From positions 1 to 41,730 of the IMG/VR virus record IMGVR_UViG_3300046698_000118: DNA of 41,730 bases. One strand, 5' to 3'. Below are positions 4,506 to 14,769 of this stretch, piece after piece; positions within the stretch are counted from its first letter, which is position 1; every line of letters starts with the position of its first letter. The notes under the pieces are model-generated. The model was not told the origin of the DNA. It searched no databases and saw nothing but the letters and a program-made list of their open reading frames with translations. Source of the DNA: a virus. The position numbers and the translations under genes are program-made.

Positions 4506-4749
4506 TTTGATTCGCTTTTTGTTGTTGGTTTACTGTTACTGTCAATACAATCTCACATGCAAAGCCGGTTGGCAACTTATTTCGCATAATGTTTCTCTCT
4601 ATCCACCAATCACTTGCGGTCGCTATACTGTATAGACACCTGAAAACATGCGGATTTTGTCACCCCAAACACTCAACCCAAGGTGTATAGACTGAGCATA
4701 TACTGACAGTCTGAGTTGACAGACAGACAGCCAAAGCGTAGTTTGCGCC
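4506..4749. promoter_or_regulatory. divergent control region with operator-like palindromes
   Basis: 244 bases between divergent blocks. CTATACTGTATAG (4623-4635) is a perfect 13-base palindrome. TGTATAGAC recurs at 4629 and 4683, and GTATA/TATAC arms flank 4684-4704. Rightward, TTGACA (4716-4721), 17 bases, TAGTTT (4739-4744) ends five bases before ATG 4750, predicting a leaderless transcript. For the leftward gene I find TTGACA near 4540 but no convincing -10. Repeated half-sites suggest binding by a repressor, though no repressor gene is visible in the window. Confidence 0.5.
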
Positions 4750-12027: not shown

Positions 12028-14769
12028 TTAATGTTTTAATAGGCCCGCATTGATTGCAGCATCCCACTCTCTGACCTCGTTGTCAAAATAATCCTCGTCA
12101 GGTTTGCTGGATTGAACCTCGCGCCCGATTCGCTCAATCCTGAAACCGAGTCGGCGAGCGCCCTCAAGGGCGATTGCAAAATAATCGTAAAGGTCGGGAC
12201 TTTTCTTTACCCGCTCCTTCATGTCGTCCTTAGATTCGACCTCGACCTTATTTCCGGCCACGATTCTGAAAAGCCGCAACTGGCCCTCTTGTGCAACTGG
12301 CATGGAAAGATTTCTGACCTGATTAGATTCAATGGCCTCGCGTGTGGAAAACCACATCTCTGTAACAAATTTCGAGTAATGTTCCTTGCATGTTTTTAGG
12401 CGTCTCTCGCCATTTTTTTCATCAATGAACAAATCAAATCTGACGGGCCTCTCGGTGGTCGGCGCGCCGGAATCAACTGGTATTGGGCAGGTGCTTCCAA
12501 ACTTCTTGGCGAATGAATTGCCAAGCGTTCCCCGGCCAAATGAATCGTAAAAGAAATTCTCAGGCGGGATGTTGAGTCGTTTGTGTTGGTTAAAAATAAA
12601 CTCAGCAATCTGATCTTCTGGCTCAATGCCGCAATTTAGTCGGATAGGAATTATTTCAGGAGTTCCAACGGCAAAGATGATATTGCCGTCCTTGTCCTCT
12701 CCAAATTCGCACTCACCGCCAACGCAGCGGTCGCCTCCACCAAATGCTGGATCACAGGAGAAAAGTTTCGTCCGAGCCGTCCCTTTCCAAGCGGCGGATT
12801 CAAATGCGTGATGCTTCTCACACAGGCCAATGGTGATGACTCGGTTTGAAACCATGCCGCGAGACGGCTTCCCAATGGCTTGCTGGAAATACTGCCACGA
12901 ATCAAGCCCATGAGTTGAAGCCATCAAGTCAATGAACTTTTGGGTTATGAGATAGGGGTAACGATTCTTCGGCTCATCGTTGTTTGGCGTATCGCGCCCG
13001 TCAAACGCAACGACATGGGCATCATACCAGCGCGAAGTCCATTCCTGAGTCTTGCCGGTGTCAATGAACGAGTCCCAACCGCCCCTTGGTTCGGCAGCGG
13101 TGCAAAGCGGGTCTGAAATATCGGTCGGATTTCCGCCCATGACTCCCTTGAAACCATCGTTCACCATCCAATTTGCGTAGGCATCAAGAAACGAAGTCTC
13201 CATGACGGCGCAGTTATGGACTAAAAATCCATTTACGGAGTAGCTTGGATGTCCGGCAATCTCAAGATTATAGACCTCAATTCCTCTGTCACAATCTGAG
13301 GCGTTTGTAAAACTCGACGGTTTGGATACCTCAACACTGTCCACCCAAGACGAATGAGAAAGTTCGCTTTCTTCACATCCTGTTCCTGCCGGGCAATCGC
13401 ATTGTGTGAGGCTCCGTCCAATTCCACAGCTAGTTTTTTGTTCGGAAAAGCAACATCTACTTTGTAATGGGTTGGGTATCCGCTTCCAGCCCTCATTTTG
13501 GTTTTCACAGGAAAATTGTTTTCCGAATCGGGAAAAAATTCCAGCAAAACTAACTCCGCTTTTGTTGGGCCGGTTCCATTCCCACCACGAATTGGGGGTT
13601 TGTGTCCGGCCAGCTTCAACCTTATGCTGATAGCTGTATTGCGTTTCTTTTTTTGCTCCGCTGTTAGAGAATCGCAAAAGCTCTGGTAGCCTGCTTCCAT
13701 TTTTGACCGCATTGCTTCGTAACGCTCTGGGTGATTCTTGAATAACAGACTCCGCGATTTCTGAATTTTTGCAGAGCGTTCTGGCGTATAAAGGTTCTTT
13801 CGATATTCCGGCTGTGCTGACCACCACTTCGCTCTGCAAGACCGACTGCAAAAAATCTTGTTTAATTTGGGGTTGGGATTTCCACAAAGTTTGCACTTTG
13901 TTTCCGGCGATGATTTGATTCGCTTCATGTTGTGTTATCATAACACAACTCTGGTTAAGGTCAATAGCCCTTTTCCAGCCGAATTGAGTTAAAAACGGAT
14001 GTTTTTCGGTGCATAAAATTATTCGTCCATCTTTGGTTTTTATTCTGCAAAGACGCCTTGCCGTCCGTCTCATCGTGGAGACAACAGTAGAAATTCCGAT
14101 TGCTGAACAAACCGCGTCTCCCGCACTAATTGATTCAATCGGGATTTTCCCGTTAGGAGTATCAACCAAAGTTCCGGCGGGAAAACATTCATCTCCATAA
14201 TGCACCATTATTCCATCCATTTTTCCGGGAGTGTTCGGGGGTTTCGATCCTTGAAACTTTCCCATCCCGACAAATCTGCCATTGGACACACAGGCAACCG
14301 TTCCGATTCCGTGGTCAAGGGTGCGGGCGACTTCATTTTCGTCGTCAATGTCGTCCGGGGTGATTTGCCGTTTTGAGTCCAGCACGAATCCATCCAGCCA
14401 AGGATACCTTTCACGACCACGATTGAACATTTTTTTCAATCGTCCCCATACTTTTCGTTCCAAAGAAATAATGTCCGTCGTGGAAAGGATGGCCAGAGAA
14501 GTATGGGGAAATGCCCAGAAGTTAATCAGTGCGTGAACGGTGAAAATATACGTTTTGTTACTAGAGGCCGCCCCAAGGAAACAAATTACCTTGTTCTCGC
14601 ATATTCTGGTCATGCCAAGAACAAACCACCGATGTTGGTCGTCCTCTGGCCAAATCAATTTGTGTGCGGCAAGATAATGTTTAACCACTCCCGGCTTTCC
14701 ATACCCTCGCCGGATGGCGTCAAATTCTCTCGCCAGCGCGAATTCTTCCGCCGAGTATTGGTCTGACAC
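12028..14769 (-). CDS. terminase large subunit, interrupted by an intein
   Basis: 913 residues including a 325-residue intein, leaving a 588-residue terminase. The ATPase has a variant Walker A (GAASSNKT, 66-73, with Asn for the usual Gly), a Walker B ending HYGDE (190-194) and motif III GGNPTD (545-550). The nuclease has acidic residues at SCDPAFGGGD (671-680, Asp673), FFYDSFGRG (739-747, Asp742) and SPDLYDYFAIALEG (857-870). The enzyme pumps DNA through the portal and cuts it. The intein splits the protein between Glu194 and the Cys after it, beside the catalytic glutamate, so packaging requires splicing. The start is GTG, apparently leaderless, under a TTGACA/TAAATT promoter. Confidence 0.9.
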   Translation of the reverse strand: MSDQYSAEEFALAREFDAIRRGYGKPGVVKHYLAAHKLIWPEDDQHRWFVLGMTRICENKVICFLGAASSNKTYIFTVHALINFWAFPHTSLAILSTTDIISLERKVWGRLKKMFNRGRERYPWLDGFVLDSKRQITPDDIDDENEVARTLDHGIGTVACVSNGRFVGMGKFQGSKPPNTPGKMDGIMVHYGDECFPAGTLVDTPNGKIPIESISAGDAVCSAIGISTVVSTMRRTARRLCRIKTKDGRIILCTEKHPFLTQFGWKRAIDLNQSCVMITQHEANQIIAGNKVQTLWKSQPQIKQDFLQSVLQSEVVVSTAGISKEPLYARTLCKNSEIAESVIQESPRALRSNAVKNGSRLPELLRFSNSGAKKETQYSYQHKVEAGRTQTPNSWWEWNRPNKSGVSFAGIFSRFGKQFSCENQNEGWKRIPNPLQSRCCFSEQKTSCGIGRSLTQCDCPAGTGCEESELSHSSWVDSVEVSKPSSFTNASDCDRGIEVYNLEIAGHPSYSVNGFLVHNCAVMETSFLDAYANWMVNDGFKGVMGGNPTDISDPLCTAAEPRGGWDSFIDTGKTQEWTSRWYDAHVVAFDGRDTPNNDEPKNRYPYLITQKFIDLMASTHGLDSWQYFQQAIGKPSRGMVSNRVITIGLCEKHHAFESAAWKGTARTKLFSCDPAFGGGDRCVGGECEFGEDKDGNIIFAVGTPEIIPIRLNCGIEPEDQIAEFIFNQHKRLNIPPENFFYDSFGRGTLGNSFAKKFGSTCPIPVDSGAPTTERPVRFDLFIDEKNGERRLKTCKEHYSKFVTEMWFSTREAIESNQVRNLSMPVAQEGQLRLFRIVAGNKVEVESKDDMKERVKKSPDLYDYFAIALEGARRLGFRIERIGREVQSSKPDEDYFDNEVREWDAAINAGLLKH
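13233..13928 (-). CDS. Vsr/DUF559-type homing endonuclease nested out of frame in the intein
   Basis: A 231-residue protein in a frame shifted by one relative to terminase. The N-terminal zinc finger is CKLC (12-15) and CSRSC (27-31), followed by a basic helical linker. The nuclease domain spans about 121-226: TKAELVLLEFF (Glu125), YKVDVAFPNKKLAVELDGAS (155-174, Asp158, Glu169, Asp171), His175 and LGWTVLRYPN (194-203). This is the Vsr/DUF559 fold with an EDxHD-like set. ATG 13928 is the first possible start, since an in-frame TAA lies three codons upstream. It has its own promoter and a palindrome at the start. The end overlaps splicing block F in another frame. Confidence 0.88.
   Translation of the reverse strand: MKRIKSSPETKCKLCGNPNPKLNKIFCSRSCRAKWWSAQPEYRKNLYTPERSAKIQKSRSLLFKNHPERYEAMRSKMEAGYQSFCDSLTAEQKKKRNTAISIRLKLAGHKPPIRGGNGTGPTKAELVLLEFFPDSENNFPVKTKMRAGSGYPTHYKVDVAFPNKKLAVELDGASHNAIARQEQDVKKANFLIRLGWTVLRYPNRRVLQTPQIVTEELRSIILRLPDIQATP
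13929..13964 (-). promoter_or_regulatory. promoter and palindromic operator of the nested endonuclease
   Basis: On the minus strand, TTGACC (13964-13959), 16 bases, TATGAT (13942-13937), then eight bases to the ATG at 13928. The -10 box is the centre of a perfect 21-base palindrome at 13929-13949 (arms GTTGTGTTAT and ATAACACAAC around one base) that abuts the start codon. A protein bound there would block the promoter. The predicted RNA start is one or two bases before the ATG, so it is nearly leaderless. All of this lies within intein coding sequence. Confidence 0.6.

Follow-up and report, generated by a model that had tools for sequence, protein, structure and literature searches.

A probable mobile terminase intein with a DUF559 nuclease gene in a second reading frame

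The window, which here means the whole stretch of 41,730 nt of viral DNA that was analysed (IMG/VR IMGVR_UViG_3300046698_000118, positions 1 to 41,730), contains a terminase large-subunit gene whose 913-aa frame (12028-14769, minus strand) is a single ORF, uninterrupted from end to end. Both exteins can be aligned with intein-less terminase homologues. Precursor residues 195-519 are an intein that begins with CFPAGT, ends with VHN|C and is inserted at a Walker B-like site, 'DE|C'. Wholly inside the intein DNA lies a second ORF, encoding a nuclease, its codons displaced one base downstream from those of the intein and its stop 20 nt short of the intein end. An earlier note, made from sequence alone, had pointed out such a Vsr/DUF559-type nuclease nested out of frame, and both the coordinates (Table 1) and Pfam agree with it.

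Table 1. Features of the terminase locus in the window
Feature	Position	Strand	Remarks
Terminase large-subunit precursor ORF (exteins + intein)	12028..14769	-	913 aa, GTG start
N-extein, 194 aa	14188..14769	-	GDE end, presumed Walker B motif
Intein, 325 aa	13213..14187	-	Cys1, TxxH block B, penultimate His, C-terminal Asn, +1 Cys
Intein N-terminal splicing half	13831..14187	-	Hint fold confident as far as about residue 100, then a helix up to 119
Intein-frame middle	13348..13830	-	Open frame of low confidence, presumably disordered, where the nuclease coding prevails
C-terminal splicing block F/G	13213..13347	-	13233-13347 doubles as nuclease C-terminus; both frames constrained
Nested DUF559/Vsr-like nuclease gene, 231 aa	13233..13928	-	+1 relative to intein; ATG start
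C-extein, 394 aa	12031..13212	-	Begins with CAVM

The splicing residues are kept in the terminase frame, as the note had also claimed: C1, T60/H63, H324, N325 and the +1 C. Among 73 aligned inteins, a set preselected for C1 and the final N, C1, H63 and N325 are invariant, and 80 C-block matches have either C (70) or S (10) as the +1 residue. Pfam Intein_splicing matches the intein part with an E value of 8.8e-7, a match that falls short of the curated cut-off. In the AlphaFold model the Hint domain is confident, with most of the two splicing halves exceeding a pLDDT of 90 (86-98 per ten residues up to residue 100, then 70 and 93), and the low-confidence middle spans roughly residues 121-280. 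The best Foldseek match of this model in the PDB is the gp41-1 intein (E 1.2e-6). By its splicing residues, Hint fold and precise intein-less alleles (described below), the element is a class-1 intein, predicted to splice. Pfam found no nuclease domain in the 913-aa terminase frame, that is, no in-frame endonuclease.

The nested protein matches DUF559 (PF04480) with an E value of 9.2e-12 and 45.2 bits versus a curated cut-off of 20.6, and can be described as zinc-finger-like/DUF559, having a CxxC...CxxxC motif close to its N-terminus. D158, E169, D171, H175 and D184 are invariant across 71 nuclease sequences and would form the putative catalytic set, which we take to be EDxHD-like; four cysteines are at least 90% conserved in the same sequences, and the window copy has all of them. 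When the nuclease model was searched with Foldseek, the I-Bth0305I catalytic domain (3r3p) came at ranks 2-3 (probability 1.00, a weak E of 3e-3, TM by target 0.65), and the top-ranked match above it was a mitoribosomal protein.

The chance that the intein frame stays open, given in the note as about 3 in 100,000, was reproduced by the 61/64-per-codon arithmetic (about 3e-5). With expected stops derived from pooled codon use at codon junctions, and conditioned on the nuclease protein, the window has 69 stop-capable junctions with 16.1 stops expected and 0 seen (P about 1.1e-9). In 80 nested loci, 0 intein-frame stops occur at 4,554 risk junctions, versus 974.8 expected. Part of this deficit is context bias, because 59 stand-alone DUF559 controls share it, having 200 stops at 1,507 junctions versus 320.5 expected. 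Moreover, a locus was called nested when both intein halves lie within one shared ORF and is thus stop-free by definition, so that the stop test depends on the scarcity of exceptions (5 of 108 loci). In the remaining alternative frame of the same 80 regions the mean is 14.0 stops; this value and the junction test rule out that base composition alone keeps the frame open. The equivalent frame of a free-standing relative (L109) likewise has 0 stops.

The two-frame comparison of substitutions that the note had called for was carried out with pairwise counts and no phylogenetic model, using 12 pairs at 60-97% identity and 33 at 40-60%. In the middle, the rate per site is 0.598 for nuclease-silent, intein-altering substitutions, 0.223 for those altering both proteins and 0.190 for those altering the nuclease only. 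The nuclease-silent, intein-altering rate falls to 0.263 in the C block (p 5e-27). There, the rate of 0.138 for altering both versus 0.187 for altering the nuclease only is not a significant difference (p 0.07), and the same C-block contrast disappears when the 33 pairs at 40-60% are used (0.294 versus 0.302). The nuclease frame evolves under purifying selection. In the intein-frame middle, openness alone is conserved and amino-acid constraint is undetectable from the substitution rates; only over the final ~100-140 nt, which form splicing block F/G, are both frames constrained. These rates rule out strict dual coding over the entire overlap. The earlier suggestion of selection on the intein frame therefore stands as far as the frame is held open, but does not extend to the amino acids of its middle.

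The arrangement was surveyed among relatives, each scan providing its best 80 loci. A 108-locus set, comprising the window, an independent contig (L003), seven phage records and contig scans, with the 59 stand-alone controls (L112-L170) set aside, divides into 103 loci where the nuclease is nested at +1 and a single ORF holds both halves of the intein, 3 that are partial and 2 that are free-standing. A 155-locus set from two later scans, whose contigs partly overlap the earlier ones, has 150 loci with the +1 nesting, 3 free-standing ones and 2 truncated where the contig ends, the C half of these two lying at +1. Pooled with intein-centred loci, there are at least 305 nested loci including repeats, 0 of those listed having the nested DUF559 in a register other than +1. 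The nested form is not the rarity it had been taken for: at least 177 distinct nucleases (at least 160 at 90% identity and at least 63 at 50%) share the +1 arrangement, which a large and divergent family of phages has kept. Neither nuclease survey turned up a locus of the split type, in which two ORFs each hold one intein half and the nuclease lies between them.

Isolate phages carry the same unit. Seven of 42 phage records with a match were fetched, and 7/7 are nested at +1. The carriers are phages of Vibrio, Pseudomonas and Corynebacterium, the host genes of the family are mostly helicases, one such helicase precursor being that of phage phi673 of Corynebacterium glutamicum, and in the seven records the nuclease gene is unannotated, the sole feature there being the host gene, usually named helicase. 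A plasmid search gave just two weak DUF559 matches. Because the same +1 register is common to terminases, SF2/SNF2 helicases and clamp-loader-type genes, the nested unit appears to be old. The nuclease frame opens downstream of Cys1 in 80/80 loci and stops ahead of the intein end in 79/80; the rule used set the intein boundary wrongly at L029 and L103 and also the ends of a few inteins, and insertion sites were recounted. Nuclease and intein N-domain distances are correlated (Mantel r 0.48, n 80, p 0.001), as expected for a nuclease and an intein travelling together, though not tightly.

Intein-less alleles are precise. Three intein-less terminases (L172-L174) have amino-acid identities of 93% on the N side and 99% on the C side of the site, which reads DE|A; in these, in L176, L180 and in others with DE|A, the extein is ungapped. 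Compared with L172, identity drops next to the insertion and stays at 100% between +200 and +1100, while the upstream side is mosaic. This profile is suggestive of a co-conversion tract only, the fit being imperfect owing to the upstream mosaic. In each of L015, L102, L408 and L437, a free-standing relative overlaps the candidate start of an ATPase gene that lacks an intein and is related to the nested hosts; the sites in these genes read DE|L, DE|S or DE|A. The near-identical intein-less terminases and the four free-standing nucleases support homing by a separately made enzyme, and the nested nuclease probably spreads the intein by cleaving such alleles.

We consider it very likely, from these sequence comparisons, that the window element is a mobile class-1 intein with a homing endonuclease gene overprinted in +1, not fused in frame. 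Translation of the terminase frame would yield a precursor, in which the Hint halves would fold round the disordered middle, excise the 325-aa intein and restore terminase. Internal initiation at ATG 13928 would yield the separate 231-aa nuclease, which would cut intein-less alleles at the DNA for the Walker B 'DE' motif, and break repair would copy the intein plus the hidden nuclease gene. Intein-frame stops would be purged so that the host gene remains translatable, the middle otherwise evolving as nuclease.

The main role of the nuclease could instead lie in competition between phages, where it would cut the terminase or helicase genes of rivals and intein mobility would be a side effect. 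Marker exclusion by free-standing homing genes predicts copies beside target-gene homologues, which is where the four free-standing copies are found. However, almost every copy found is carried by an intein at the target, and alleles without the intein coexist, their flanks near-identical, as simple homing predicts; we regard competition as the main role as unlikely, if worth keeping in view. The competition and simple-homing ideas overlap.

How the nuclease is translated bears on another alternative. With the start taken as the last ATG ahead of the first CxxC, a start codon is present upstream of that motif in 79/80 loci, and the nuclease frame is closed a median of 9 codons further upstream. 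An SD-like 4-mer accompanies 28/79 chosen starts versus 81/568 ATGs of the intein N regions, all ATGs there being counted with the chosen starts included (Fisher p 1.6e-5). Free-standing homologues start at about the same place as nested nucleases. We infer separate translation of the 231-aa protein from the internal ATG. If +1 ribosomal frameshifting from the intein frame produced an N-splicing-half/nuclease fusion instead, the register would always be +1, as it is, and no SD-like motif would be called for at the window's own ATG, where it is indeed absent, as in 51/79 loci with the window counted. The conserved start codons, the upstream closure, the SD enrichment and the free-standing starts all argue against frameshifting and make it improbable.

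Less probable again is a nested frame that no longer works as a gene, being either a relic in decay or a passive by-product. Homing genes usually decay after fixation. Two mini-inteins in the scans lack a nested ORF, and one of these, the 426-nt L354 at a DE|C site, resembles such an end state, retaining a C-terminal remnant of the nuclease. This mini-intein has lost the middle, instead of keeping it without a nested frame as the earlier note had proposed for a counterexample. Against a relic, purifying selection acts on the nuclease frame, the putative catalytic residues and the cysteines are conserved as described above, and L003 retains both frames with a full nuclease ORF at 72% identity. 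Finally, a sequencing or assembly frameshift splitting a true in-frame endonuclease, also foreseen in the note, has practically no chance, being refuted by the at least 177 distinct sequences and isolate phage genomes from separate projects in one register, with both frames open across the whole overlap and no relative needing frameshift repair.

The usual description of an intein homing endonuclease is that of a domain in frame with the intein. Homologous inteins contain other out-of-frame nucleases as well, namely HNH_3 in +2, HNH_2-like in +1 and, in one case, a weakly Vsr-like nuclease in antisense; in L298 the +2 frame is open. We somewhat favor a wider reading in which inteins with overprinted homing genes are widespread, overlooked phage mobile elements of several origins, represented by these three and by DUF559 in +1, the last now across Walker B sites of many P-loop ATPases. 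The nuclease would alternate between nested and free-standing states beside the same targets, and breakdown of the open frame would lead to naturally split inteins with stand-alone nucleases, whose origin the arrangement thus bears on. A host gene can be forced open across a second gene, and an intein middle can be almost free sequence. Because the two functions would be separate proteins on one DNA, splicing and mobility could be separately regulated or lost.

In-frame inteins of the PI-SceI type have a LAGLIDADG or HNH endonuclease. The window intein shares with them the Hint domain, an endonuclease coded between blocks B and F and insertion in a conserved active-site motif, but its endonuclease is encoded in a different frame as a protein of its own, and its in-frame middle is low-confidence and presumably disordered. 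The 'fractured genes' of Dassa et al. 2009 reportedly pair a split intein, gp41-1 for instance, with a free-standing Vsr-like endonuclease. The best structural match of the window intein is gp41-1 and its nuclease resembles the Vsr-like I-Bth0305I, whereas this intein is contiguous with the nuclease overprinted on it; we hypothesize that one arrangement gave rise to the other. Free-standing homing genes beside a target gene are known as intronless or collaborative homing. The four free-standing relatives likewise adjoin an intein-less target-gene homologue, while the window copy sits within the intein.

No description of an intein containing a homing gene in a different frame was found in the literature, as judged mainly on titles and abstract starts, and a 2025 actinobacteriophage preprint on 'non-canonical' inteins may hold cases. 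The closest published parallel found is the ShiLan domain, which like Pacc40 gp60 is an out-of-frame HNH insertion in phage methylases (PMC11855218). Its authors found no intein or intron for the ShiLan-type insert and suggest that it may loop out without disturbing the methylase (PMC11855218). In both systems an out-of-frame homing nuclease lies inside an insertion that is open in the host frame; ShiLan and Pacc40 have HNH and no splicing domain, whereas the window has DUF559 and Hint (PMC11855218 for the former).

A DUF559 (Vsr-like) nuclease is encoded out of frame inside the terminase intein of the window, as listed in the table. The Intein_splicing match of the intein in Pfam (E 8.8e-7) falls short of the curated cut-off, and the terminase exteins gave no Pfam domain match. 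In the AlphaFold model of the intein (mean pLDDT 70.2), a Hint domain predicted at high confidence is interrupted by a middle of low confidence (means below 60 per ten residues over 121-280), and the closest structure to this model is the gp41-1 intein (E 1.2e-6). The nuclease has four conserved N-terminal Cys and invariant D158, E169, D171, H175 and D184. Its confident model (pLDDT 90.5, pTM 0.56) resembles the catalytic domain of the homing endonuclease I-Bth0305I (probability 1.00, E 3e-3, ranks 2 and 3), a mitoribosomal protein being rank 1, and its profile finds 3hrl, an endonuclease-like protein, best in the PDB (E 5.5e-14), with I-Bth0305I only at E 0.02.

Features of the window and overprinted nucleases of homologous inteins
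Feature	Position	Strand	Remarks
Terminase ORF, 913 aa	window 12028-14769	minus	uninterrupted frame over full length
Intein, terminase residues 195-519	window 13213-14187	minus	CFPAGT at start, T60xxH63, VHN at end, Cys next
Intein middle	window 13348-13830	minus	
C block (splicing block F/G)	window 13213-13347	minus	
Nested nuclease ORF, 231 aa	window 13233-13928	minus	register one base downstream of intein codons (+1); DUF559 E 9.2e-12
Inverted repeat	window 13929-13949		perfect, 10 bp, one-base centre; adjoins nuclease start codon
HNH_3 in +2 frame	intein middles of L301, L322, L324, L326, L327, L339-L344, L346-L348 and others		intein frame open
HNH_2-like nuclease, +1, intein at another site	L338:2649-3524		Pfam just below cut-off
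HNH_2-like nuclease, +1, intein at another site	L351:2649-3473		Pfam above cut-off
Antisense ORF, 306 codons, weakly Vsr/DUF559-like	L333:2699-3616	minus	all Pfam matches below cut-off; own intein frame open

The arrangement is widespread. Matches to the nuclease were found by tblastn in 42 phage records, and all seven isolate records examined hold it nested at +1 within an intein, with no annotated nuclease CDS in any of the seven stretches; they come from Pseudomonas phage MR14, five Vibrio phages and Corynebacterium phage phi673. The host gene is a helicase by annotation or Pfam in six; the seventh (104E43.1), annotated as hypothetical, is near-identical by eye to the 159E43-1b gene. When phage records were combined with viral and genome contig scans (best 80 loci per scan, 59 stand-alone DUF559 genes set aside), 103 of 108 loci were nested at +1 within one ORF, three were partial, namely L109 and two truncated at contig ends whose C half is at +1 (L080 and L106), and two were free-standing. 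Two further viral scans, of contigs partly overlapping the earlier ones, gave 155 loci: 150 nested, two cut and three free-standing, of which L211 is the same contig as the free-standing L015. With an intein-centred scan included, the pool reaches at least 305 nested loci, repeats counted, all 305 in register +1, and at least 177 distinct nested nucleases (at least 160 at 90% identity and 63 at 50%). Because each scan returned its best 80 loci, the nested family exceeds this sample.

One nuclease, 100% identical to that of the window, lies on a 5.5 kb contig in an Anaerolineae MAG bin (PLNY01000004.1), which is either a phage fragment caught in the bin or a clue to the host. Three loci in bacterial assemblies (L103, L108 and L110) have the same nested element in clamp-loader-type ATPase genes; some adjacent ORFs in L103 and L110 are phage-like, judged by eye.

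Asp-Glu directly precedes Cys1 in 75 of 80 representative nested loci (L082 included) and sits one to four residues upstream in the other five. We read this site as the Walker B motif. Extein domains in 51 host proteins were Helicase_C (36), ResIII (30), SNF2-rel (6), DNA_pol3_delta2 (3) and Terminase_6N (1). Among 36 relatives of the window's terminase, 30 lack the intein, three are cut by contig ends and the three that bear it (L171, L177 and L184) are the window's own sequence. For the intein-less L172-L174, amino-acid identity is 93% in the N-extein and 99% in the C-extein, and the site reads DE|A (the bar marking the insertion point); in L195, L201 and L202 there is no intein, yet Cys already follows DE. 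At the DNA level the window and L172 share 72% and 78% of positions in the 50 nt that flank the insertion on each side; identity is 100% between +200 and +1100, and the upstream side is a mosaic.

In L015, L102, L408 and L437, a free-standing nuclease, 46-55% identical to its best nested match, overlaps a terminase or helicase gene at its candidate start; that gene lacks the intein and reads DE|L, DE|S, DE|A or is frame-broken at the motif. The intein-equivalent frame has 6 stops in L015 and 19 in L102. Such copies are as would be expected of an enzyme aimed at terminase/helicase genes and produced independently of the intein.

Selection was examined in both frames. Over ~212 codons the intein frame has no stop in the 80 representatives, and the remaining frame averages 14.0; the 59 stand-alone genes have a mean of 3.4 stops over 116 codons in the equivalent frame, which is open in two of them. 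An intein-frame stop forms if a nuclease codon ending in T precedes AA, AG or GA. Stops occur at 0 of 4,554 such risk junctions in the nested loci versus 974.8 expected, and at 200 of 1,507 in the controls versus 320.5, the expectation being taken from safe junctions of identical amino acids. Since the controls also show a deficit, context bias explains part of it, but not all.

Per-site rates, counted over sequence pairs, are given as changes silent in the nuclease only, altering both, and silent in the intein only. In the middle they were 0.598, 0.223 and 0.190 for close pairs (60-97% identity, n = 12) and 0.726, 0.407 and 0.319 for distant pairs (40-60%, n = 33). Controls gave 0.429, 0.153 and 0.119 (close, n = 22) and 0.604, 0.393 and 0.258 (distant, n = 23). 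In the C block the rates were 0.263, 0.138 and 0.187 (close, n = 12) and 0.448, 0.294 and 0.302 (distant, n = 33). The drop of nuclease-silent changes there has p 5e-27 with sites taken as independent, and the close-pair difference between both-altering and intein-silent changes is not significant (p 0.07). Together with the stop test, these substitution patterns indicate that the nuclease protein is selected along its whole length, that the intein middle is held open, its residues looking free, and that in the C block both frames are under constraint.

The nuclease frame opens downstream of Cys1 in all 80 representatives and ends ahead of the intein end in 79, L031 overrunning by 217 nt. A start codon lies shortly upstream of the first CxxC in 79 of 80, and the frame is shut a median of 9 codons farther upstream (within 15 codons in 55 of 79). 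SD-like 4-mers precede 28 of 79 nuclease starts versus 81 of 568 ATGs in intein N regions (p 1.6e-5); none precedes the window's own start. Containment, start position and SD enrichment favour internal initiation as the probable route to the nuclease. The inverted repeat at the window's start codon, possibly an operator or hairpin or else chance, retains one arm only in L003, an independent contig with both frames at 72% nuclease identity.

Other nucleases are overprinted on homologous inteins. The intein-centred scan was tallied for 79 of its best 80 loci (L076 was counted earlier): 52 carry DUF559 at +1, and 21 have a +2 ORF of 178-299 codons with an HNH motif. Pfam HNH_3 was found in 15 of 16 +2 ORFs scanned, the 16th (L298) having been scanned one base off frame, and the intein frame is stop-free in 12 of 12 correctly framed cases counted. 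These inteins occupy sites other than DE. Besides the HNH_2-like and antisense ORFs of the table, there remain two mini-inteins (L354 and L359) and one incomplete intein. By an HNH pattern, the only in-frame test applied, no nuclease was recognised in the intein frame of the 79. L354, a 426-nt mini-intein at a DE site, has a C-terminal nuclease remnant at +1 (42.9 bits) and is likely the end state once the nuclease gene is lost. These different families and registers suggest more than one origin for the overprinting of homing genes on inteins.

The literature searched, one relevant preprint being beyond reach, yielded no homing gene overprinted on an intein. Ordinary inteins are defined by in-frame endonucleases. 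Split inteins accompanied by stand-alone Vsr-like nucleases have parts like those of the window in an unlike layout. The closest report found is the ShiLan element, in which an HNH gene lies out of frame within a methylase gene, differing from the window by the absence of an intein or intron (PMC11855218).
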